In this document: piece by piece, positions 4,683-18,351 of the stretch | Position numbering within the stretch: the first letter of the stretch is position 1 | Layout: every line of letters begins with the position of its first letter | DNA from: Candidatus Methylomirabilis lanthanidiphila | GTDB taxonomy: Bacteria; Methylomirabilota; Methylomirabilia; Methylomirabilales; Methylomirabilaceae | Reading direction: 5' to 3' | Length of the DNA stretch: 64,000 nucleotides | NCBI GenBank assembly: GCA_902196205.1 | Contig: CABIKM010000003.1 | Location: 1-64,000 of the forward strand | Program-made: the position numbers and the translations under genes | Notes under the pieces: generated by a model | Databases searched by the model: none | What the model was told of the DNA's origin: nothing | What the model saw: the letters and a program-made list of their open reading frames with translations, nothing else

Positions 4683-4762
4683 TTTTCAGGCCGGTGAAAC
4701 CGGAAAGGCTGTGTCGGGAGCGATCTCGTGATGGCGTTCGTGAAGATCTGTGAGGGGTGTCC

Positions 4763-5680
4763 ATGACCGATCATGCCGCCGCCTGCCTGATCGGGGAGCA
4801 CAACGGCTTTCGCTGGTATCACGTGGACGACCCGAGGGGTCCGGCGCTCGACGAACTGGCCGCAGAGTTCGGCCTGCACGAGCTGGCGGTCGAGGATTGC
4901 CGCAATCAGCGCCAGCGCGCCAAGCTCGAAGAGTACGACGGCCACCTGTTCGTAATCTTTAACTCCATTCACTTCGACCCGGAACAAGAGCAGTGCTGGT
5001 TCCGCGAGATCGATTTCTTTATCGGTAAGGATTTTCTGATCAGTGTCCGCGAAGGTCCGACACTCAGCCGCACCGTGGCGGCGGTGTTGCCGGGCTTTCA
5101 TGCCGACCCTGCGATGGCCCATCCTGGCCGCCTGCTGCGGGCCATGCTCGACTTCATGGTGGACCAGTACCTGCCCGTGCTCGACACCGTGGAGGACCGC
5201 ATCGAGGAGATCGAGGAGCAGATCCTCGAGAATCCCAGCCCCCGGCTGCTCGCCGATATCTTTGCGCTGCGCCGCGCGTTGATCGATTTCCGCCGCGTGG
5301 CCTTGGCCGGCCGCGAGGTCATCAATCACCTGTTGAGCCGCGCCGAGCCCTGGCTCCAGTCGCAACAGCCGTATTTCCGCAACATCTACGACCACATCGT
5401 CCGCGCGCTTGATTTCGCGGAGACCTATCGCGACATCCTCACCGGCGTGCTCGACGTCCACCTCTCCGCCACCGCCAATCGCACCAACGACATCATGAAG
5501 CGCCTGACCGCCTGGGCGACGGTGGCCATTCCGTTCCTGCTGATTACCGGCTTCTTCGGCATGAACTTCCCCAACCTGCCATGGCTCGATAGCTCGCTTG
5601 GCTGGGTGTATGCGTCAGCGGCGATGCTCGCCGTGGGCGTTGCGATCGGCGCCTATTTTAAGTACCGCGACTGGTTCTGA
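4763..5680 (+). CDS. corA: CorA-type divalent cation transporter
   Basis: A 305-aa inner-membrane Mg2+/Co2+ (or Zn2+) transporter. A long acidic, helical cytoplasmic domain is followed by two C-terminal membrane helices. The signature is intact at the end of the first helix: ITGFFGMNFPNLPW (GMN plus NLPW). The last residues KYRDWF follow the second helix, as in the family. The ATG at 4763 is placed 4 nt after GAGGGGTG and preferred over the GTG at 4757. The stop overlaps the next ATG by 1 bp (TGATG), so the unknown gene downstream is translationally coupled. Confidence 0.92.
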   Translation: MTDHAAACLIGEHNGFRWYHVDDPRGPALDELAAEFGLHELAVEDCRNQRQRAKLEEYDGHLFVIFNSIHFDPEQEQCWFREIDFFIGKDFLISVREGPTLSRTVAAVLPGFHADPAMAHPGRLLRAMLDFMVDQYLPVLDTVEDRIEEIEEQILENPSPRLLADIFALRRALIDFRRVALAGREVINHLLSRAEPWLQSQQPYFRNIYDHIVRALDFAETYRDILTGVLDVHLSATANRTNDIMKRLTAWATVAIPFLLITGFFGMNFPNLPWLDSSLGWVYASAAMLAVGVAIGAYFKYRDWF

Positions 5681-6714
5681 TGCCCGTGATACGCGACATG
5701 CCAAGCCGTTCCTCGCTTTCTGTCTCCGAACTCGCCTGGCGCAAGGTCCGCCATGAGATCACTCCAACGCTGCAGGACGCCATGCGGCAGCTCCCAAACT
5801 ACCTCTCCCACCTCAACCTCTCTCGCCTCCCTCCGCAGGTCGTCTGCCCTGGCAGCCTGCTGCTCAACTGGCTGGCCGTGACACGGCCTGGCCTCTCGGA
5901 CCTGGAGCAGATTGCCATGGCCGAGGATCTGCTGGTCTGGGCGGCTTACCGCGACGCGAAGACTGTCTGGCGGATCGAGCCCTGTCTGCTCGATGCCCTC
6001 TCGGACTGCCCGTGGCCGGACGAGACGCCCATGACGGCCATCAGGCTGCCCAGCCGCTGCCCCGTCCTGGAATGGCAGGGCCCGGAAGGGCCCATCGTGG
6101 TCTCCGCCTGTTACGACCTGCTGACTGGGCAGGAAGGCACAGGAAAGCTTGAACTGCGGCTCCAATGGTTGCATGAGCAGAGGTGGCTCCCCCTGGCCAT
6201 TCTGTACAATGACGCTCCCACGCTCAGCGCGGCCCTGGAGCAGGCCCAGGCTGTTGCGCTCGACGCCGCCCGGCAGGTCCAGGGCGCGCCGCTTGATATC
6301 GAGGCCCCGTTCCGATCGGACCTCGCCCGCATGGCCTTGATCCTGCTGCTGTACTTGAGCGGTGAGCCCGATATGGTCAAGACGGTCCATCCAGGCGCGA
6401 AACCCCATCGTGACGTCAGGATGCGCCGCAAGGATCCTGAACGATGGGCGGACATCCGGGAGCCCACGGTCTGGGATGTTGGCGTCGAATACCGGAAGGC
6501 GCTTGAACGATGGGAGATCGAACAGACGCGGGAGATTGCGACCCATGCGTCAGATCGGTCGGTCAGGCCACACATGCGCCGTGCGCATGCCCACCTCTAC
6601 TGGACCGGTCCCGGCAGAACGGAGCCGCGGGTACGATTTGTGCTGCCGATTGCCGTCAAGGGCAAGCAGGTGGAGGAAGAGGCTGCAACGCCCATCATCC
6701 AATCGATACGATGA
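5680..6714 (+). CDS. AcrVA2-like protein (putative anti-CRISPR family)
   Basis: A 344-aa soluble protein without signal peptide or membrane segment. The C-terminal signature PHMRRAH (297-303) followed by LYWTG, plus the WDVG motif at 265-268, matches my memory of AcrVA2-like proteins. AcrVA2 itself reduces Cas12a levels by acting on its mRNA, but most chromosomal relatives are uncharacterised. It overlaps the corA stop by 1 bp. No cas gene or CRISPR array is in the window. What is seen is the motif pattern; family membership is recalled, not searched; an anti-Cas12a role here would be speculation. Confidence 0.6.
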   Translation: MPVIRDMPSRSSLSVSELAWRKVRHEITPTLQDAMRQLPNYLSHLNLSRLPPQVVCPGSLLLNWLAVTRPGLSDLEQIAMAEDLLVWAAYRDAKTVWRIEPCLLDALSDCPWPDETPMTAIRLPSRCPVLEWQGPEGPIVVSACYDLLTGQEGTGKLELRLQWLHEQRWLPLAILYNDAPTLSAALEQAQAVALDAARQVQGAPLDIEAPFRSDLARMALILLLYLSGEPDMVKTVHPGAKPHRDVRMRRKDPERWADIREPTVWDVGVEYRKALERWEIEQTREIATHASDRSVRPHMRRAHAHLYWTGPGRTEPRVRFVLPIAVKGKQVEEEAATPIIQSIR

Positions 6715-6819
6715 GTGATCGGGTGCTCGGGGGCGTCACGGGCTGGGTTATTCACCCAGGTGTCTACCGCTTAACGGTGGGTGTAAGCGTATGTGGGTGA
6801 CGTGGGAAGGCGTTCCGCG

Positions 6820-8428: not shown

Positions 8429-8673
8429 TCTTGGTCCTTCTCAATGCATAAGTGAACCATTTAGGCAACCGCAAATCCTGACCGCCTATCTCCCGAAACT
8501 GTCCAGCCACCCAAAGCTGGCGTCGCCACAATATTCACCACTTAGCTGACCCCGTCAAAAACTTTGTAGCCGGCAAACACTGCCAGGCTTGGCGGCCTTG
8601 CATCTCCAACGGCTATGCCAAGTCTCCTCGGCGCCTTGAGGAGCTGCCAAGGCTCGTCGAATTTCACTACGAC

Positions 8674-8985
8674 CTATACTGTCAGTTCCACGACCACCCG
8701 ACAGTGGTCAGACGCCTTGGGCCCATTCAGGCCCACGCCAGGGAACCGAGGTCCCTTGTAGCGATCGGCCCGTTTCGGCATCCCCCGCCGTTCCCTTGCG
8801 GCCGCCCAGGTACAGGTCGCGGAACCGCTTCAGGGTATCGAGGTTCTCGACCTCCTGGAGGACCAGGACATCGGCCTTGGTGGCGAGGATCGCCTGGGCT
8901 GTGATCTGTTTACTGAGGTCATCGTAGATATCAAAGTGTCGCTGATCGGCTCGCCAGCCAAGGTGCCGATGCGGATCGTCGCCAT
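8674..8985 (-). pseudogene. Remnant of an endonuclease/exonuclease/phosphatase-family gene
   Basis: The ATG at 8985 has an excellent GAGGAGGTCC ribosome-binding site and begins MATIRIGTL. After a frameshift the frame reads HFDIYDDLSK, then ADVLVLQEVENLDTLKRF, which carries the metal-binding Glu (QEVEN) of this nuclease/phosphatase family. After another frame change the end reads GPKASDHCRVVVELTV, which holds the C-terminal SDH motif. About 100 aa remain of a family usually 250 aa or longer, so the middle is deleted. It cannot encode an active enzyme. Confidence 0.65.
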
Positions 8986-9291
8986 AAGGACCTCCTCTCG
9001 CGGCAGGAGCCGTTTATGATTGCGTTCCCATTGGGGTAACTTTAGGCTTGGCAGGGCGGGCCGTCAAGGAACTTCTGTTTGTCTGTAGGTAGCTTGTTTA
9101 GCGCAGTAGGATGTGTTGCTAACCGCGCGAGAAGGTTGTACTATCTGCCCTATCTTAAAACGACTGGTCGAACGGTCTGTCGCATTCGAGATTTCTAAGT
9201 TCAACCACCTCCCTTGGAGGCGAAGCCTGGATATGTTTCACGTCGGTAGCCGAGACGTAGATACCAGCGGCGTGGCCGAGAGCCGTCTCAC
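8986..9291. other. Intergenic stretch before the defence operon
   Basis: A 306-bp gap. No ORF with plausible composition, no clear -35/-10 pair, terminator or tRNA was found. It presumably holds the promoter of the helicase operon that starts at 9292. Confidence 0.5.
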
Positions 9292-12200
9292 ATGAAGCTC
9301 GTTCGCAACATAGGCTCAGAGCGGGTCATTGACCTGATCCGCCCTTGGCTCGCGCCGGGTCATCAGCTCGACATGGCGACCCCAGAGCTGTCGCTGTTTG
9401 CCTTCGGCGAGCTCTTCAAGGAGGCATTGACGCTGCGGCAGGTGCGCCTTCTCTTGCCCCCCGCTGGCACCGATCTGGCGGTATTCGGGACGAGCGCTGA
9501 TCGTCCTCTCCGCAATCGCCTCCGGTCCCGGTGGCTGGCCAAGCGCCTAGCTCAGTGGCTGCGAGACAAGGTCGACGTGCGCCGCGCCCTCGGGCCGGTG
9601 CCGCAAGGCATCTTCGTGCTGCGCGACGGAAACCCGACCCCGCAGAAGGTGATTCTCGGCTCGATCGGATTCAGCACCGAAGGGTTGGGCATCGCTCCGG
9701 GGAACCCGCTCAGCCTGATCCAAGCCTCGGAGACTGCGGAGGAAGCGGCCCTTCTCAGCCAGTGGTTCGATGCACAGTGGACCGGGCTCCCCGCGGATGT
9801 CGGCGCCAAGGCGGCCGTCATTGAGGCAGTCGAAGCCTTGGCCTCCCATCGCGAACCGCTTCTCGTCTACGCCCTTATCCTGTACCACCTGTTTCGTGAG
9901 CGGGGCGAGCAGCTCGACGAGGATCAGGTCGTCAAATCGGCAACCGGCATCCGAAATACGGTCGTGTGGAGGAAGCTCTTCAAGTTCCAACGCGACGGCG
10001 TCGTCGGCGCGATCGACAAGCTCAACCGCTTCGGCGGTTGCATCATCGCCGACAGCGTCGGCCTCGGGAAGACCTTTGAGGCGCTCGCGATCATCAAGTA
10101 CCACGAGCTGCGCAACGACCGTGTGCTGGTGCTGTGTCCCAAGCGCCTTCGCGATAACTGGACGCTCTACAAGGCGAACGACCGCCGCAACGTCCTCGCG
10201 CCCGACCGTTTCAACTACGATGTCCTGAACCACACCGACCTGTCGCGTGACGGCGGTTCGTCCGGCGACATCGACCTGGCGCACGTCAACTGGGGCAACT
10301 ACGATCTTGTCGTCATCGACGAGTCGCACAACTTCCGCAACAAGCGCACGCCCCAGAAGGGCGGCGAGACGCGCTACGACCGCCTGATGCGCAGGATCAT
10401 CCGCGAGGGCGTCAAGACCCGGGTGCTGATGCTCTCGGCCACGCCGGTGAACAACCGGATGGCGGATCTGCGCAACCAGATCGCCTTTGCGACGGAAGCC
10501 GACGACACCGCGCTCCTCGATCACGGCATCGCGAGCATCGACAGCACCACCCGCCTAGCGCAGAAGCAGTTCAACCGCTGGCTCGATCTCGAAGACTCGG
10601 AGCGTACGCCCTCGCGGCTGATCGAGATGCTGGGCTTCGATTACTTCACGCTCCTCGATCTGCTGACCATCGCGCGCTCACGCAAACACATCGAGAAGTA
10701 CTACGGCATCGCCGAGACAGGGCGCTTCCCCGACCGCCTGAAGCCGATCAACATCAAGGCCGACGTGGACCGGGCCGGCGAGTTCCGCTCGATCCGCGAC
10801 ATCAATCAGGAGATCCGGCGACTGAATCTCGCCGCCTACGCGCCGTTGCGCTACGTGCTGCCGCACAGGCAGGAGGCGTACGACAGGAAGTACAGCACCG
10901 AGGTCAAAGGCGGCATGGGATTCTTCCGTCAGGTGGACCGCGAGGAAAGCCTGATCCATCTGTTGCGCGTGAACGTGCTCAAACGCATGGAGAGCGCCGT
11001 GCCGTCCTTCGCCCTGACGGTTGCGCGCCAACTGCGGGACGTCGAGGCCACGCTGGCCCGCATCGAGGTGCAGGCCGAGGAGTTGGAGGAGATCGACATC
11101 GCCGATGTGGACATCGACGATCCCGCCTTCGAGAGCCTGCTCGTCGGCCGCAAGGTCAAAGTCCTGCTCCGGGATGTGGACCTCATCCGCTGGAAGCAGG
11201 ACCTGGTCGAGGACCGCAACCGCCTGGCCACCCTCCTTGCCGCCGCCAGCCAGGTGGACGCCGCGCGCGACGCGAAGCTCGCGTGGCTGCGGGAGGTCAT
11301 CGAGCGCAAGTGCAGGCAGCCGATTAACCCCGGCAACCGAAAGGTGATTGTCTTCACCGCGTTCGCCGACACCGCCCGCTACCTGTACGAGCAGCTCGCC
11401 CCCTGGGCCAAGCAGACGATTGCCCTCGAAACGGCGCTGGTGACGGGAACCGGGAGCAACCAGACCACCCTGCCGGGTCTACGCAAAGACCTCGCGTCGA
11501 TCCTGACCGCGTTTGCGCCCCGATCGAAGGAGCGCCCGGAGGAACTAGCCGGCGAGGGCGAACTGGACCTGCTCATCGCCACCGACTGCATCTCCGAGGG
11601 CCAGAACCTCCAGGACTGCGACTGGCTCATCAACTACGACATCCACTGGAATCCGGTGCGCATCATCCAGCGCTTCGGCCGGATCGATCGCATCGGCTCC
11701 CCCAACGAGCGCATTCAGCTCGTCAACTTCTGGCCCAACATAGAGCTGGAGGAGTACATTAATCTGGAGCAGCGCGTAAGCGGCCGCATGGTGCTGCTCG
11801 ATATTTCGGCCACGGGCGAGGAGAATCTGATCGAACAGCAGTCCGGCAACCAGATGAACGATCTGGAGTACCGGCGCAAGCAGCTCCTGAAGCTCCAGGA
11901 CGCCGTGATCGATCTGGAAGACCTCTCCACCGGCGTGTCCATCGCGGACCTCACGCTTACCGACTTCCGTATCGATCTCGCGCAGTACATGAAGGCCCGT
12001 CCGGGTCTCCTGGAGAGCCTGCCGCTCGGGACCTGCGCGGTGACGACCACCACCGAGGCGGAGGCGCCCCCGGGGATCCTCTTTTGCCTGCGCGCCGAGG
12101 GCGACGCCGTTGCGCGGACGGGCGAGACCGGCTATCCGCTGGCGCCGCACTACCTCGTGCACGTCAGCGACGATGGCGTCGTGCTGCTCCCCTACACCCA

Positions 12201-12489
12201 GGCCAAGCAGATCCTCGACCGGCTGAAGCGGCTGTGCCTCGGCCGCGACCTGCCCGATGCGGGCGCGTGTGCCCGCTTCGACAAGGCCACGAAAGAGGGT
12301 GAGGACATGCGCCGCGCACAAAGCCTGCTCGCCGCCGTCGTCGCCTCGGTGGTCGGCAAGAGTGAGGAGCGGGCCGTGGCGAGTCTGTTTACGCCCGGCG
12401 GCACCCATGCGCTGAAGGGCGAGTTCGCCGGGATCAACGACTTCGAGGTCGTAGCCTTTCTCGTCGTCCTGCCGGGAGAGGACGTATGA
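9292..12489 (+). CDS. SNF2/SF2-type helicase with N-terminal PLD-like domain, defence-associated
   Basis: A 1065-aa ATP-dependent DNA translocase/helicase. Residues about 1-190 look like a phospholipase-D-like fold with GSIGFSTEGLG, but the usual HxK of the nuclease motif is not visible, so nuclease activity is doubtful. Helicase motifs: Walker A GLGKT at 257-261, DESH at 343-346, LSATPVNN, and motif VI QRFGRIDR at 793-800. The last 200 aa are family-specific. The stop overlaps the next ATG (ATGA). It is first of four genes with DUF4391, Mod and Res, and probably acts on foreign DNA together with the type III enzyme. Confidence 0.82.
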   Translation: MKLVRNIGSERVIDLIRPWLAPGHQLDMATPELSLFAFGELFKEALTLRQVRLLLPPAGTDLAVFGTSADRPLRNRLRSRWLAKRLAQWLRDKVDVRRALGPVPQGIFVLRDGNPTPQKVILGSIGFSTEGLGIAPGNPLSLIQASETAEEAALLSQWFDAQWTGLPADVGAKAAVIEAVEALASHREPLLVYALILYHLFRERGEQLDEDQVVKSATGIRNTVVWRKLFKFQRDGVVGAIDKLNRFGGCIIADSVGLGKTFEALAIIKYHELRNDRVLVLCPKRLRDNWTLYKANDRRNVLAPDRFNYDVLNHTDLSRDGGSSGDIDLAHVNWGNYDLVVIDESHNFRNKRTPQKGGETRYDRLMRRIIREGVKTRVLMLSATPVNNRMADLRNQIAFATEADDTALLDHGIASIDSTTRLAQKQFNRWLDLEDSERTPSRLIEMLGFDYFTLLDLLTIARSRKHIEKYYGIAETGRFPDRLKPINIKADVDRAGEFRSIRDINQEIRRLNLAAYAPLRYVLPHRQEAYDRKYSTEVKGGMGFFRQVDREESLIHLLRVNVLKRMESAVPSFALTVARQLRDVEATLARIEVQAEELEEIDIADVDIDDPAFESLLVGRKVKVLLRDVDLIRWKQDLVEDRNRLATLLAAASQVDAARDAKLAWLREVIERKCRQPINPGNRKVIVFTAFADTARYLYEQLAPWAKQTIALETALVTGTGSNQTTLPGLRKDLASILTAFAPRSKERPEELAGEGELDLLIATDCISEGQNLQDCDWLINYDIHWNPVRIIQRFGRIDRIGSPNERIQLVNFWPNIELEEYINLEQRVSGRMVLLDISATGEENLIEQQSGNQMNDLEYRRKQLLKLQDAVIDLEDLSTGVSIADLTLTDFRIDLAQYMKARPGLLESLPLGTCAVTTTTEAEAPPGILFCLRAEGDAVARTGETGYPLAPHYLVHVSDDGVVLLPYTQAKQILDRLKRLCLGRDLPDAGACARFDKATKEGEDMRRAQSLLAAVVASVVGKSEERAVASLFTPGGTHALKGEFAGINDFEVVAFLVVLPGEDV

Positions 12490-13256
12490 ACACGGACGAG
12501 ATCCTCGCAGCCCTCGATCTGCCGGCGAGCAGCCGCGTAGACCGTCGCGTCCCGAAGACGCTGCTAATCGCGAACGGCGCGCCCACGGCCGCGGACAAGC
12601 GGACCATCAACGACGGGGTCGAGGAGCTGCTCTGGGTGGCGGCCCTCAAGCCATCGACGGTCGCCGTACCCGAGTTTCGCGACAACGCGCGCGAATATCT
12701 GGAGATCGCCGTGCTGCGCCTCACATTGCGCCCTGACGCCAAGGCAGGTCGGCTCGTGGAGCTGGTGCATCGGGCCGTGCCTTATCCTGTGCTGCTGGTG
12801 GCGGACAATGGGAGGGCGCACGGCGGTGCGCCCCTACTGGCGATGGCCCACAAACGGTGGTCACAGGGCGAGGCGGGTAAGATGGTGCTGGAGGGCGATG
12901 TCGTGACCGTCGAATGGGACGACGTCAGCGACGGTCCGCACGGAGCCGCCTTTCGCGACGCGCTCACCCTCGGCCGCCAGTCTCGGGCCTCGCTCTATGC
13001 GCTGTATCAAGGCTGGATGGATACAGTGCTCGCCCTCGAAGTCGCACGACGCACGGGGGTCTTCGAGCTGCCGGGCTCGACCGAGCGCTCCGCCGCTCGC
13101 CGCGCCGCCTTACAGGAATGCGCGCGGTGCGAGGCCGAGAGCGCCCGCCTGCGCGCCGCCGCCGCCAAGGAGAAGCAGATCCCCAGGCAGGTGGAACTGA
13201 ACCTGACACTCAAGCGCGTCGAGGCCGCCCGCGCCGCCGCGCTCGCCAGACTGTGA
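12486..13256 (+). CDS. DUF4391 domain protein
   Basis: A 256-aa protein beginning MNTDEILAALDLPASSRVDR, the usual N-terminus of DUF4391. Residues 70-150 are a mixed alpha/beta core containing VAVPEFRDNAREYLEIAVL and PYPVLLVADN. The C-terminus is an Arg/Ala/Glu-rich probable coiled coil. No enzymatic motif is recognised. The family is repeatedly found between a helicase and type III restriction-modification genes, as here, so it is probably an accessory defence component. It is coupled to the helicase gene by a 4-bp overlap and lies 15 bp before mod. Confidence 0.75.
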   Translation: MNTDEILAALDLPASSRVDRRVPKTLLIANGAPTAADKRTINDGVEELLWVAALKPSTVAVPEFRDNAREYLEIAVLRLTLRPDAKAGRLVELVHRAVPYPVLLVADNGRAHGGAPLLAMAHKRWSQGEAGKMVLEGDVVTVEWDDVSDGPHGAAFRDALTLGRQSRASLYALYQGWMDTVLALEVARRTGVFELPGSTERSAARRAALQECARCEAESARLRAAAAKEKQIPRQVELNLTLKRVEAARAAALARL

Positions 13257-13271
13257 AAGGATGGACACGCG

Positions 13272-15329
13272 ATGAAGAAGCTGACCGCTGACGATCCCGA
13301 GAGCCGCTCCCCTGATATTGTTGCGGAGAACGTCGCGCAGTTGAAGGCCCTGTTTCCCGAACTCGTGACCGAAGGCCCGAACGGCGTGTCTGTGAACGTG
13401 GACGTGCTCAAGCAACTGGTGGGCGATAAGACCGTGACCGACGCCGACGAGAAGTACGGCCTCAACTGGCACGGCAAGCGCCGCGCGCGCCAGCTCGCGC
13501 TCACGCCGTCCACCGGCACGCTGCGCCCCGGCCCGGAGGAGAGCGTGGATTGGAACACCACGCAGAACCTGATGATCGAGGGCGACAACCTGGAGGTGCT
13601 CAAGCTGCTGCAGAAGAGCTATGCCGGGAAGGTGAAGCTTATCTACATCGACCAGCCATACAACACCGGCAAGGACTTCGTCTATCCCGACGACTATCGC
13701 GACAACATCAAAAACTACCTGGAGCTGACCGGGCAGGTGGACGGCGGGCGCAAGATCACCAGCAACACCGAGTCCAGCGGCCGGTTTCACACCAACTGGC
13801 TGAACATGATGTATCCGCGGTTGAGGCTGGCCAGGAATCTGTTGAAGCCAGATGGGGCCATTTTCGTCAGTATCGCCGACCAGGAGATACAGAACCTTCG
13901 GATCGTCATGAATGAACTGTTCGGTGAGGAGAACTTTGTCGCAACGGTGATCTGGCAGAAGGTGTTCTCGCCAAAGAACTCCGCGCGGCACTTCTCGGAA
14001 GACCACGACTACATCGTCGTGTATGCCCGAAGTGCGGAGGCATGGGCGCCAAGGCTGCTGCCGCGCACCGATGAGATGGAAGCCCGTTACTCGAATCCCG
14101 ATAACGACTCGCGCGGTCCGTGGACATCCGGAGATCTTTCTGCGCGCAATTACTACGGAGAGGGCACCTATCCTGTGACGTGCCCTTCGGGTCGCGTGAT
14201 CGACGGACCACCTTCTGGACGCTATTGGGTGATTGCCAAAGGCAAGTTCGACGAGTTGGACCGCGATGGCCGTATCTGGTGGGGTGCGGACGGCAACAAC
14301 ATGCCGCGGTTGAAGCGCTTCCTTTCCGAAGTAAAGGCGGGTCGCGTCCCCCAAACCCTTTGGACCTACGACGAGGTCGGTCACACCCAGGAGGCCAAGA
14401 AGGAGCTGCTGGCCAGGGTGGAGTTTCCGAACTCCGACGTCGTCTTCGACACACCCAAGCCCACGCGGCTCATCCGGCGCATCCTGCAGCTTGGCACTGC
14501 GCCGGAGGGGGACGACATTGTCCTCGACTTCTTCGCGGGTACCGGTACGACCATGGACGCCACCTTTGCCCAAAACGCCGAGGACGGGGGCAAACGCCGT
14601 TGCATCCTCGTGCAACTGCCCGAGCCCCTGCCCGGTGGGGAGGCCGCCGGGCTCTCAACCATCGCAGACATCACCAAGGAACGCCTGCGCCGCGCGGGGA
14701 AGAAGATTCGGGAGGAGATAGGAGGGAGAAGTCAGGAGACAGAAGTCAGGAGGAAGGAGTTAGAAGGGAAGAAGGGAAAGGCGAAGCAGGCGCAGGGCTC
14801 GTTGTTGGCCGAGGCGCCTGTCGATCCCCTTCTGGCTCCTGACTCCTCACTCCTTACTTCTGACCCCTCCCCCGACCTCGGCTTTCGCGTCTTCAAGCTC
14901 GACTCCAGCAACATCCGCGCGTGGGAGCCGGACCGCGGCAACCTCGATCAGTCGCTCCTCGACGCCGTCGAACACCTCAAGACCGACCGCACCGAGGCGG
15001 ACATCCTATACGAGCTCCTGCTCAAGCTCGGGCTCGATCTGTGTGTGCCCATAGAGAAGAAAGAAGTCAGGAGCGAGGAGTTGGAAGGGAGTAGTCATAC
15101 GGTTCATGCGATTGGGGCTGGGGCGTTGATGGCCTGCCTATCGGAACGGATTCCGCAGGCGGATGTGGAAAGGTTGGGGCTGGCAATCGTCGAATGGCAC
15201 ACGGCCCTCGCCCCGGCCGGCGACACGACCTGTGTTTTCCGCGACAGCGCCTTTGCCGACGATGTGGCCAAGACCAACTTGGCCGCAATCCTCGAGCAGC
15301 ACGGCATCGCGAAGGTGAGGAGCATATGA
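13272..15329 (+). CDS. mod: Type III restriction-modification methyltransferase (Mod) with altered DPPY motif
   Basis: A 685-aa beta-class N6-adenine methyltransferase. In the catalytic motif at 127-130 the sequence is DQPY (codons GAC CAG CCA TAC) where DPPY is expected; the surrounding KLIYI-NTGKDFVYPDDY context is normal. The AdoMet motif DFFAGTGTT at 419-427 is intact. Two short stretches, about residues 486-532 and 595-610, are encoded by repeat DNA and look inserted. Mod would supply specificity and methylation for the type III complex; whether the Q128 variant still methylates cannot be told from sequence. The res gene starts 1 bp after the stop. Confidence 0.85.
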   Translation: MKKLTADDPESRSPDIVAENVAQLKALFPELVTEGPNGVSVNVDVLKQLVGDKTVTDADEKYGLNWHGKRRARQLALTPSTGTLRPGPEESVDWNTTQNLMIEGDNLEVLKLLQKSYAGKVKLIYIDQPYNTGKDFVYPDDYRDNIKNYLELTGQVDGGRKITSNTESSGRFHTNWLNMMYPRLRLARNLLKPDGAIFVSIADQEIQNLRIVMNELFGEENFVATVIWQKVFSPKNSARHFSEDHDYIVVYARSAEAWAPRLLPRTDEMEARYSNPDNDSRGPWTSGDLSARNYYGEGTYPVTCPSGRVIDGPPSGRYWVIAKGKFDELDRDGRIWWGADGNNMPRLKRFLSEVKAGRVPQTLWTYDEVGHTQEAKKELLARVEFPNSDVVFDTPKPTRLIRRILQLGTAPEGDDIVLDFFAGTGTTMDATFAQNAEDGGKRRCILVQLPEPLPGGEAAGLSTIADITKERLRRAGKKIREEIGGRSQETEVRRKELEGKKGKAKQAQGSLLAEAPVDPLLAPDSSLLTSDPSPDLGFRVFKLDSSNIRAWEPDRGNLDQSLLDAVEHLKTDRTEADILYELLLKLGLDLCVPIEKKEVRSEELEGSSHTVHAIGAGALMACLSERIPQADVERLGLAIVEWHTALAPAGDTTCVFRDSAFADDVAKTNLAAILEQHGIAKVRSI
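14727..14867. repeat. Repeat inserted in the mod coding sequence
   Basis: Units of the type AGAAGTCAGGAG occur twice at 14727-14753, and their inverted form (CTCCTGACTCCTC, then CTTCTGACC) occurs at 14835-14864. The segment stays in frame and encodes a low-complexity stretch rich in E, K, S and L. A related unit, AAGAAGTCAGGAGCGAGG, recurs at 15060-15077 in the same gene. It looks like a mobile or expanding intergenic repeat that landed in a gene without breaking the frame. Confidence 0.65.
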
Positions 15330-15330
15330 A

Positions 15331-18300
15331 GTGAAACTCCACTTCGAGCCGAACCTCGACTACCAGTTGCAGGCCATCGCGGCGGTGTGCGACCTGTTCC
15401 GTGGTCAGGAGGTCTGCCGCACCGATTTCACGGTGACGATGAAGGCGCCACCGGGCGCTGCCGACGATCGGTTCCCTGGCACTGTGCCGCAGCAACTGAC
15501 GCTGGGCGTGGTGGAATCCGATCTCGGTGTCGGCAACCGGCTGACCCTGCTGGACGACGAGCTGCTAAAGAACCTGGCCGACATCCAGCTCAAGAACGGC
15601 CTGCCGCCGTCCGTGGCGCTCGCCTCGGGCGATTTTACGGTGGAGATGGAGACCGGCACAGGTAAGACGTACGTCTACCTGCGCACGATCTTTGAGCTGA
15701 ACAGGCGCTACGGCTTCACCAAGTTCGTCATCGTCGTGCCGTCGGTCGCGATTAAGGAGGGCGTCTACAAGACGCTTCAGATCACCGAGGAGCACTTCAA
15801 GGGGCTCTATGCTGGGGCGCCCTTCGACTACTTTGCCTACGACTCCGGCAAACTCGGCCAGGTACGCAACTTCGCCACCAGTCCTCAGATCCAGATCATG
15901 GTGGTGACGGTCGGCGCCATCAACAAGAAGGACGTCAATAACCTTTACAAGGACAGCGAGAAGACCGGCGGCGAGAAGCCGATCGACCTTATCAGGGCGA
16001 CGCGGCCCATCGTGATCGTAGACGAGCCGCAGAGCGTGGATGGCGGGTTGCAAGGGCGCGGCAAGGAGGCGCTCGACGCGATGAACCCGCTCTGCACCCT
16101 GCGCTACTCGGCGACGCACGCGGACAAGCATCACATGGTCTACCGCCTCGACGCCGTGGACGCCTACGAAAGGCGGCTGGTCAAACAGATCGAGGTCGCC
16201 TCGGCGACGGTGGAGGACGCCCACAACAAGCCGTACGTCCGGCTGCTTTCGGTGAATAACAGGCGCGGCGTCATCTCGGCCCGGGTCGAGCTCGACATGC
16301 AGACCGCGAGCGGCGTCCGGCGACAGGAGGTGACGGTCCAGGACGGCGATCACCTGGAGCTGACCACCGGGCGCGCCGTCTACGCCGACTGCCGTGTCGG
16401 CGAGATCCGCGTCGGGAGGGGCAATGAATTCATGGAACTGCGCGTTCCCGGCAGCGAGCAGTTCCTCAAGCCCGGCCAGGCGTGGGGCGACGTGGACGCG
16501 CTCGCCGTCCAGCGCGAGATGATCCGCCGCACCATCAAGGAGCACCTCGACAAGGAGAAGCGCCTGCGCCCGCAGGGCATTAAGGTGCTCTCGCTCTTCT
16601 TCATCGACGCGGTGGAGCGGTACCGGAAGTACGACGCAGAGGGCAACCCCGAGAAGGGCGACTACGCCCTGATCTTCGAGGAGGAGTATCGTCGATTCGC
16701 CCGGCACCCGGACTACCGGACGCTCTTTCAGGAAGTGGACCTCTCGCGCGCCGCCGAGGAGGTCCACGGCGGGTACTTCTCCATCGACAGAAAGAAGATA
16801 GAGGGCAGGACGGTTGCCATGTTCAAGGACACCCGCGGCGACACCCAGGCCGACGACGATACCTACAACCTGATCATGCGAGACAAGGAGACGCTGCTCT
16901 CGCTGGAGACGCCGCTCAAGTTCATCTTCTCCCACTCCGCGCTCCGCGAGGGCTGGGACAACCCCAACGTCTTCCAGATCTGCACGCTGCGTGACATCCG
17001 GACCGAACGCGAGCGACGCCAGACCATCGGCCGGGGTCTGCGCCTGTGCGTCAACCAGAACGGCGAGCGCCTGCGCGGCTTCGAGGTCAACACGCTCACG
17101 GTGATCGCCACCGAGCGCTACGAGCAGTTCGCGGAGAACCTGCAGAAGGAGATCGAAGCCGATACCGGCATCCGCTTCGGCATCGTAGAGACGCACCAGT
17201 TCGCCGCCGTCACCGTGACCGACGCCGGCGGCCGGGCGACGCCGCTCGGCTTCGAGCAGTCGAAGATGTTGTGGGAACACCTCAAGACCCAGGGACACAT
17301 CGACGCTAAGGGGAAGGTGCAGGAGTCGCTGCGGCAGGCGCTGAAGGAGGGAACCCTTGCCGTGCCGGAGCCCTTCACGGCTCAACTCGGCCAGATCCGC
17401 GAGATCCTCCTGAAGCTCGCTGGCCGGTTCGAGATCAAGAACGCCGACGAGCGCAGGCCGGTGTCGCTGCGCAAGGAGGTGTACTTGAGCCCGGAGTTCA
17501 AGGAACTGTGGGACCGCATCAAGCACAAGACCACCTACCGGGTGCAGTTCGACAATGAGAAGCTTGTGGAGCGATGTATTCGAGCGCTCCAGGATGCGCC
17601 GCCCATCGCCAAGACCCGCCTGCAGTGGCGCAAGGCCGATATCGCCATCGGCAAGGCGGGGGTCGAGGCGAAGGAGCGGGAGGGCGCCGCGACCGTCGTA
17701 CTCGACGAGCGCGACATCGAGCTGCCCGATCTGCTCACCGATCTGCAGGACCGCACGCAGCTCACCCGCCGCACGATCCGGCGCATCGTGACCGGCAGCC
17801 GGCGGCTCGACGACTTCACACGCAACCCGCAGGCCTTCATCGAGCTGGCGGGCGAAGCGATCAACCGATGCAAGCGCCTGGCCGTCGTGGACGGCATCAG
17901 GTACCGGCGACTCGGCGACGAGCACTACTACGCACAGGAGCTGTTCGAGCAGAAGGAGCTGATCGGATACCTCAAGAACATGCTTGCCGAAACTAGGAAG
18001 TCGGTATACGAGCAAGTGGTCTACGACTCCGACACCGAGGCCACGTTCGCCGACGACCTCGAGAAGAACCAGGCCATCAAGATGTACGCCAAACTCCCGG
18101 GCTGGTTCACGGTGCCGACGCCGCTCGGCGGCTACAACCCCGACTGGGCTGTGCTGGTCGAGCAAGACGACGGTGAGCGGCTCTACTTCGTGGTGGAGAC
18201 CAAGGCCGGCCTCTTCGCGGATGATCTGCGCGATAAAGAGGGCGCCAAGATCGCATGCAGCAAGGCGCACTTTAAGGCGCTTGAAGTGCGAGAGGCGTCA

Positions 18301-18351
18301 GCGAAGTACATCGTCGCTCGATCGGTGGATGACGTGTTGACGGCCGCATAA
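15331..18351 (+). CDS. res: Type III restriction endonuclease subunit Res
   Basis: A 1006-aa DNA-dependent ATPase/translocase with a C-terminal nuclease. Walker A ETGTGKT is at 107-113 and motif II DEPQ at 231-234. A helicase C-terminal half includes FSHSALREGWDNPNVFQ and RQTIGRGLRL. The PD-(D/E)xK nuclease is intact: D938 in NPDWAVL, E956 and K958 in VVETK. The GTG start lies 1 bp after the mod stop. With Mod it would cut DNA bearing unmethylated sites; its active-site residues are all present, in contrast to Mod. Confidence 0.9.
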   Translation: MKLHFEPNLDYQLQAIAAVCDLFRGQEVCRTDFTVTMKAPPGAADDRFPGTVPQQLTLGVVESDLGVGNRLTLLDDELLKNLADIQLKNGLPPSVALASGDFTVEMETGTGKTYVYLRTIFELNRRYGFTKFVIVVPSVAIKEGVYKTLQITEEHFKGLYAGAPFDYFAYDSGKLGQVRNFATSPQIQIMVVTVGAINKKDVNNLYKDSEKTGGEKPIDLIRATRPIVIVDEPQSVDGGLQGRGKEALDAMNPLCTLRYSATHADKHHMVYRLDAVDAYERRLVKQIEVASATVEDAHNKPYVRLLSVNNRRGVISARVELDMQTASGVRRQEVTVQDGDHLELTTGRAVYADCRVGEIRVGRGNEFMELRVPGSEQFLKPGQAWGDVDALAVQREMIRRTIKEHLDKEKRLRPQGIKVLSLFFIDAVERYRKYDAEGNPEKGDYALIFEEEYRRFARHPDYRTLFQEVDLSRAAEEVHGGYFSIDRKKIEGRTVAMFKDTRGDTQADDDTYNLIMRDKETLLSLETPLKFIFSHSALREGWDNPNVFQICTLRDIRTERERRQTIGRGLRLCVNQNGERLRGFEVNTLTVIATERYEQFAENLQKEIEADTGIRFGIVETHQFAAVTVTDAGGRATPLGFEQSKMLWEHLKTQGHIDAKGKVQESLRQALKEGTLAVPEPFTAQLGQIREILLKLAGRFEIKNADERRPVSLRKEVYLSPEFKELWDRIKHKTTYRVQFDNEKLVERCIRALQDAPPIAKTRLQWRKADIAIGKAGVEAKEREGAATVVLDERDIELPDLLTDLQDRTQLTRRTIRRIVTGSRRLDDFTRNPQAFIELAGEAINRCKRLAVVDGIRYRRLGDEHYYAQELFEQKELIGYLKNMLAETRKSVYEQVVYDSDTEATFADDLEKNQAIKMYAKLPGWFTVPTPLGGYNPDWAVLVEQDDGERLYFVVETKAGLFADDLRDKEGAKIACSKAHFKALEVREASAKYIVARSVDDVLTAA

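Follow-up and report, generated by a model that had tools for sequence, protein, structure and literature searches.

The gene and its surroundings

The window, by which we mean the whole 64,000-nt stretch analysed, carries an open reading frame on its forward strand (the window gene) whose product (the window protein) belongs, by sequence and fold comparisons, to the family of the phage anti-CRISPR AcrVA2 and of FinQ. The features of the locus are collected in table 1, together with the CRISPR-Cas loci found elsewhere in the window's own genome (G000).

Table 1. Features of the locus and CRISPR-Cas loci of the same genome
Feature	Position	Strand	Description
corA (CorA-like Mg2+ transporter)	4757..5680	+	Pfam CorA 6e-71; neighbour, no conserved partner
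Junction	5680..5684	.	corA homology stops at 5680; from 5684 on, the sequence is homologous to the AcrVA2-like block of the sisters
AcrVA2/FinQ-family gene (window gene)	5680..6714	+	344 aa, intact; start ATG 5680 or GTG 5686
WDVG motif codons, window gene	6472..6483	+	Residues 265-268, conserved
Codons R296-G310, window gene	6565..6609	+	RPHMRRAHAHLYWTG, residues 296-310
SRAP 3'-end remnant	6729..6790	-	SRAP intact downstream of the G009 copy; weak: tblastn E 0.09 and similar DNA
Decayed fragment	8670..9069	-	85-88% similar to DNA found 6 kb downstream of the copy in G009 (MATIRIGTFNVENLF...)
Type III restriction-modification operon	9292..18351	+	Complete, 2.6 kb downstream of the window gene; Snf2-like helicase, DUF4391
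Type I-C locus, own genome			cas3, cas5c, cas8c, cas7, cas4, cas1
Type III-A locus, own genome	G000:C28:1-9180 (L077)		csm3, csm6-like, group II intron-like reverse transcriptase adjoining cas1

The ATG start of the window gene overlaps the TGA of corA by one base (TGATG), and the alternative GTG aligns with the ATG of sister copies found in three genomes (G009, G014 and G008, the last being Candidatus Methylomirabilis sp. Ru_enrich_MO2, of the same genus). As no ribosome-binding motif was seen before the ATG, the gene may plausibly be translated by ribosomes that re-initiate after corA. A preliminary description, made from the sequence alone, had delimited the same complete reading frame, pointed to the two motifs of table 1 and proposed translational coupling to corA. 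The frame and both motifs are indeed present and the overlap is real, but the arrangement is not conserved. The junction is private to the window genome: another ORF comes after corA in the sisters, and in G009, G014 and G008 the AcrVA2-like gene is instead preceded, with an ATGA overlap, by an ORF of 157-171 aa with a likely signal peptide. Given that CCGTGATACGCGAC is retained next to corA in the window, as in the sister junction, the arrangement with corA seems to be the derived one. The coupling is thus uninformative on function, and an operon partnership with corA was ruled out. The exported-looking ORF of the sisters was also ruled out as a dedicated partner, since it is found upstream of an msrB-like ORF without any AcrVA2-like gene. 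Across 28 family loci (26 viral, 2 chromosomal) no shared neighbour gene was found. Several Methylomirabilis genomes contain scattered copies of a short repeat of about 110 bases (G008:C95:6224-6399 and 9280-9385; G000:C15:126101-126206; G008:C156:599-704), which runs from the 3' terminus of the gene upstream of the sister copies into the 5' terminus of the AcrVA2-like gene; it could be a small unit that is mobile or arose by recombination.

Downstream, the decayed fragment resembles by eye an exonuclease/endonuclease/phosphatase-like gene, and a short piece of the fragment is also found in G014; the presence of the fragment in both the window and G009 hints at a common ancestry of the two loci. 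The G009 copy adjoins SRAP, caspase, ThsB-like TIR and NACHT genes. The caspase-like, ThsB-TIR-like and NACHT genes are consecutive and adjoin the AcrVA2-like pseudogene (L018:10295-13729), forming what looks like a defence cluster. Within the restriction-modification operon of the window, the Snf2-like helicase (PADLOC HKD+Snf2, DrmD-like) and the DUF4391 gene lie upstream of mod and res. The window gene itself sits among chromosomal genes, as had been supposed, and is flanked by this operon; its position varies among genomes, and its synonymous divergence equals that of core genes.

Kinship with AcrVA2 and FinQ

Searches of Pfam, NCBIfam and PADLOC returned no model or label for the window protein. 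It matches phrog_6160 (E 6.9e-19), and a single-sequence phmmer search of the PDB retrieved AcrVA2 (7ci1, 1.5e-5). A profile of 13 family sequences recovered AcrVA2 (PDB 7CI1) over nearly its whole length at 1.5e-38, with nothing else significant. When the AlphaFold model of the window protein (pLDDT 77, pTM 0.78) was compared with Foldseek, AcrVA2 (7ci2/7ci1) gave the only significant PDB matches (8e-9 to 1e-7, TM 0.49-0.60); the model also matched a number of phage proteins that are uncharacterised. The AcrVA2-like assignment of the preliminary description is therefore borne out by sequence, fold and motif, both the profile search and the structure comparison that it had named as checks leading to AcrVA2; judged by alignment and predicted structure, the window protein is a divergent AcrVA2-family member. 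Five positions are invariant in all 40 aligned family members (H298, R300, R301, H303 and G310) and H305 is kept in 39. The window protein retains the resulting H-x-R-R-x-H-x-H core (H298, R300, R301, H303, H305).

FinQ, not mentioned in the preliminary description, falls in the same family. FinQ is a plasmid fertility-inhibition protein known since the 1980s, which shuts off the transfer genes of a rival plasmid. One family member from IMG/VR (L103) matched 547 plasmid records at <=1e-8, mostly FinQ of IncI-type plasmids, with 27.8% identity to the latter (1e-23), and FinQ finds AcrVA2 directly (E 5.6e-12). When a profile was built from proteins of viral contigs alone, with the window clade left out, it recovered FinQ (4e-42), AcrVA2 (1.6e-38) and the window protein (4e-32), and phrog_6160 is matched by both FinQ and the window protein. 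By these sequence comparisons the three are one protein family. In the literature collection searched, FinQ and AcrVA2 are not named together in any paper; an earlier mention elsewhere may exist. On the E. coli plasmid NZ_CP148321.1 (L141:2743-3831) FinQ is annotated with 259 aa within an open frame of 362 aa; the extra N-terminus bears the WRxT-IYR motif of the family, and translation probably begins further upstream than annotated.

The branching pattern of our phylogenetic analysis sets the window protein apart from both characterized members. Together with two further sequences, one from Candidatus Methylomirabilota NC_groundwater (L114) and one from Desulfuromonadaceae UBA6124 (L115), it forms a clade with full support (100/100) on a branch of 2.7 changes per site, which groups with neither AcrVA2 nor FinQ in an unrooted tree with many open deep nodes and flagged long branches. 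The two relatives are 46-50% identical to the window protein. They differ in that the first adjoins Uma2 and DUF6573 genes and not corA, and the second has an internal stop, a single in-frame TGA at a tryptophan codon conserved in its relatives (L115:5917-7083); a nonsense mutation is one possible cause, a problem of binning or assembly another. In the 40-member alignment, five otherwise nearly invariant residues are altered in this clade (W90Y, Y97W, G143A, W304A and W320F). The long branch and these replacements suggest that the window protein may do something other than AcrVA2 and FinQ do. Most family members found reside on plasmids or phages, in collections that contain only such elements. 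The proposal that anti-CRISPRs arose from chromosomal relatives gains no support from this tree, where the chromosomal sequences stand on a separate long branch, apart from AcrVA2; being unrooted, the tree does not refute the proposal either.

Descent, decay and the CRISPR context

An AcrVA2-like gene was identified in 5 of 95 genomes of the phylum, and a two-sequence profile search of genome contigs gave four loci. The synonymous divergence of the gene (dS 0.50 for window/G009, 0.56 for window/G014 and 0.58 for G009/G014) is near that of corA (0.60, window/G014) and moaC (0.62 against G009, 0.52 against G014), and its dN/dS is low (0.16, 0.18 and 0.21, respectively; corA 0.14). Vertical descent within Candidatus Methylomirabilis with purifying selection fits these values. 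The copy in G009 has a 4-base deletion, and that in G014 and G008 a separate 1-base deletion, so two independent frameshifts have occurred; fragments of the gene are found in G006, G008 and the window's own genome. Some of these lesions could be explained by sequencing error in metagenome-assembled genomes, though G014 and G008 have theirs in common. In the window's own genome the fragments belong to a decayed second copy (G000:C15:119648-119978 and 126101-126206). The restricted presence and the decayed copies give the pattern of an accessory rather than a core gene, with frameshifted sisters and differing genomic contexts, and a core cellular role is not sustained by these data. In sum, the window gene is, by sequence comparison, old and under selection, though patchy.

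No CRISPR-like short-spaced direct repeats were found in the window, in agreement with the preliminary description, which had seen no CRISPR. The statement does not extend to the genome, where cas1 occurs at two loci, one of type I-C and one of type III-A (table 1). The search for cas12a, which had been named as a check, gave no match for profile TIGR04330 in 15 genomes, a profile that had no positive control and was silent in control genomes too. A Cas12a-type repeat motif was sought in the window's own genome, and none was found.

A putative silencer and its relatives

What the two characterized relatives do offers a plausible frame for the window gene. AcrVA2 recognises the nascent N-terminus of its target, leading to translation-dependent loss of cas12a mRNA (PMC13131331). 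FinQ is reported to bring transcription within the F tra operon to an end at multiple positions and without Rho, and to block F transfer (PMC8744291, citing Ham and Skurray 1989 for the termination). Set side by side, the two agree in outcome, a specific mRNA being lowered (F tra transcripts and cas12a mRNA, respectively). We tentatively put forward, at somewhat less than an even chance, that the window gene encodes a chromosomal AcrVA2/FinQ-like silencer of one or more non-Cas12a targets, belonging to a mobile element or to the host. The protein would make one chosen mRNA, or a small number of them, less abundant, as AcrVA2 and FinQ do in outcome; by analogy with AcrVA2, it might recognise a nascent peptide on the ribosome, whereupon the message would be lost. 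The target is probably not Cas12a, and would most likely be encoded by a competing mobile element, or else by the host. The directly supported part of this proposal comprises the homology, fold, purifying selection, vertical-like divergence, defence neighbours, decay in sisters and lack of detected Cas12a. Against the silencer proposal, published descriptions of FinQ make it a terminator of transcription, and not a co-translational destabiliser of mRNA. On a wider generalisation, AcrVA2 and FinQ would exemplify a single, widely distributed family whose members are programmed to silence messages, recognising peptides as they emerge and bringing about destruction of the mRNAs that encode them. 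Mobile elements would use it against rivals and CRISPR, and the Methylomirabilis/Desulfuromonad clade would be a form that resides in the host and has a target of its own. We consider this unlikely as a whole. An LSKT-like Cas12a epitope was sought in the Tra proteins of F and none was found, a result that is uninformative.

Other explanations bear on the same observations. The gene might be a decaying passenger, open in the window genome only by chance, as the frameshifts in G009 and G014/G008, the in-frame stop of the Desulfuromonad copy and the fragmentary state of other copies, two of them in the window's own genome, would suggest. We hold this to be rather unlikely, in view of the dN/dS of 0.16-0.18 in comparisons that include the window branch, the full-length open frame and the retained invariant core residues. 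A narrower form of the silencer proposal, to which we give a smaller chance still, sees a host defence gene that lowers the mRNAs of incoming plasmids or phages, in effect FinQ turned to host use. The nearby restriction-modification operon, the caspase/TIR/NACHT genes beside the G009 copy and the block on F transfer attributed to FinQ (PMC8744291) are consistent with it; neighbourhoods nevertheless vary among genomes, and the gene is absent from PADLOC.

Improbable in our estimate is a true anti-CRISPR left behind by a mobile element and directed at a CRISPR system that the lineage meets, such as the type I-C system of this host or a type V-A system since lost. Homology to AcrVA2, the type I-C and III-A loci of the host and the precedent of AcrVA3.1, which is of the same anti-CRISPR set as AcrVA2 and inhibits both V-A and I-C (PMC7556299), would favour this scenario. 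Against it, no Cas12a was found, the tree places the window protein away from AcrVA2, the other characterized family member, FinQ, is not an anti-CRISPR, and it is not easy to see why a host would long retain a gene that acts on the CRISPR system of that same host. Least credible is the idea of a housekeeping regulator, domesticated and linked to corA and Mg2+ homeostasis: the one-base overlap and a purifying selection close to that on corA (about 0.16-0.18 versus 0.14) speak for it, yet the junction is private, the sister corA is followed by another gene, and the gene is patchy and twice independently frameshifted in sisters. The preliminary description is thus partly supported, being right on the family and wrong on the meaning of corA.

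Returning to the silencer proposal, the homology between FinQ and AcrVA2 lets each protein serve as a test of the other: does FinQ depend on translation of its target, and does AcrVA2 cut or terminate transcripts? A shared silencing of messages, largely apart from CRISPR, is suggested for the AcrVA2/FinQ family. Were this so, many plasmid and phage proteins that pass as "AcrVA2-like" would probably not be anti-CRISPRs, with consequences for the annotation of anti-CRISPRs by homology. The window gene represents an old and selected chromosomal branch of this family, in a lineage without detected Cas12a.

Compared with AcrVA2 of a Moraxella bovoculi prophage (AKG19228.1; PDB 7CI1/7CI2), the window protein has in common full-length homology, the predicted fold and the C-terminal H-x-R-R-x-H-x-H core. 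It differs in its low identity (about 16-19% on structural alignment), in the lack of W304, W90, Y97 and W320, and in being encoded by a chromosomal gene of core-like divergence, in a host where no Cas12a was detected. FinQ of IncI1 and related plasmids is of the same family by the shared viral-only profile and phrog_6160. However, it is encoded on conjugative plasmids beside trbA-trbC, while the window gene lies on a contig of 121,770 bases among chromosomal genes; FinQ retains the family tryptophans, several of which are changed in the window protein; and its target is the F tra operon. The hypothetical PHROG 6160/AcrVA2-like proteins, carried by Lactobacillus phage JCL1032, by Leptospira, Pasteurella and Erwinia phages and by Thermales and Proteobacteria plasmids, are borne by mobile elements and 20-30% identical to the window protein, but match it in length, domain order and motif.
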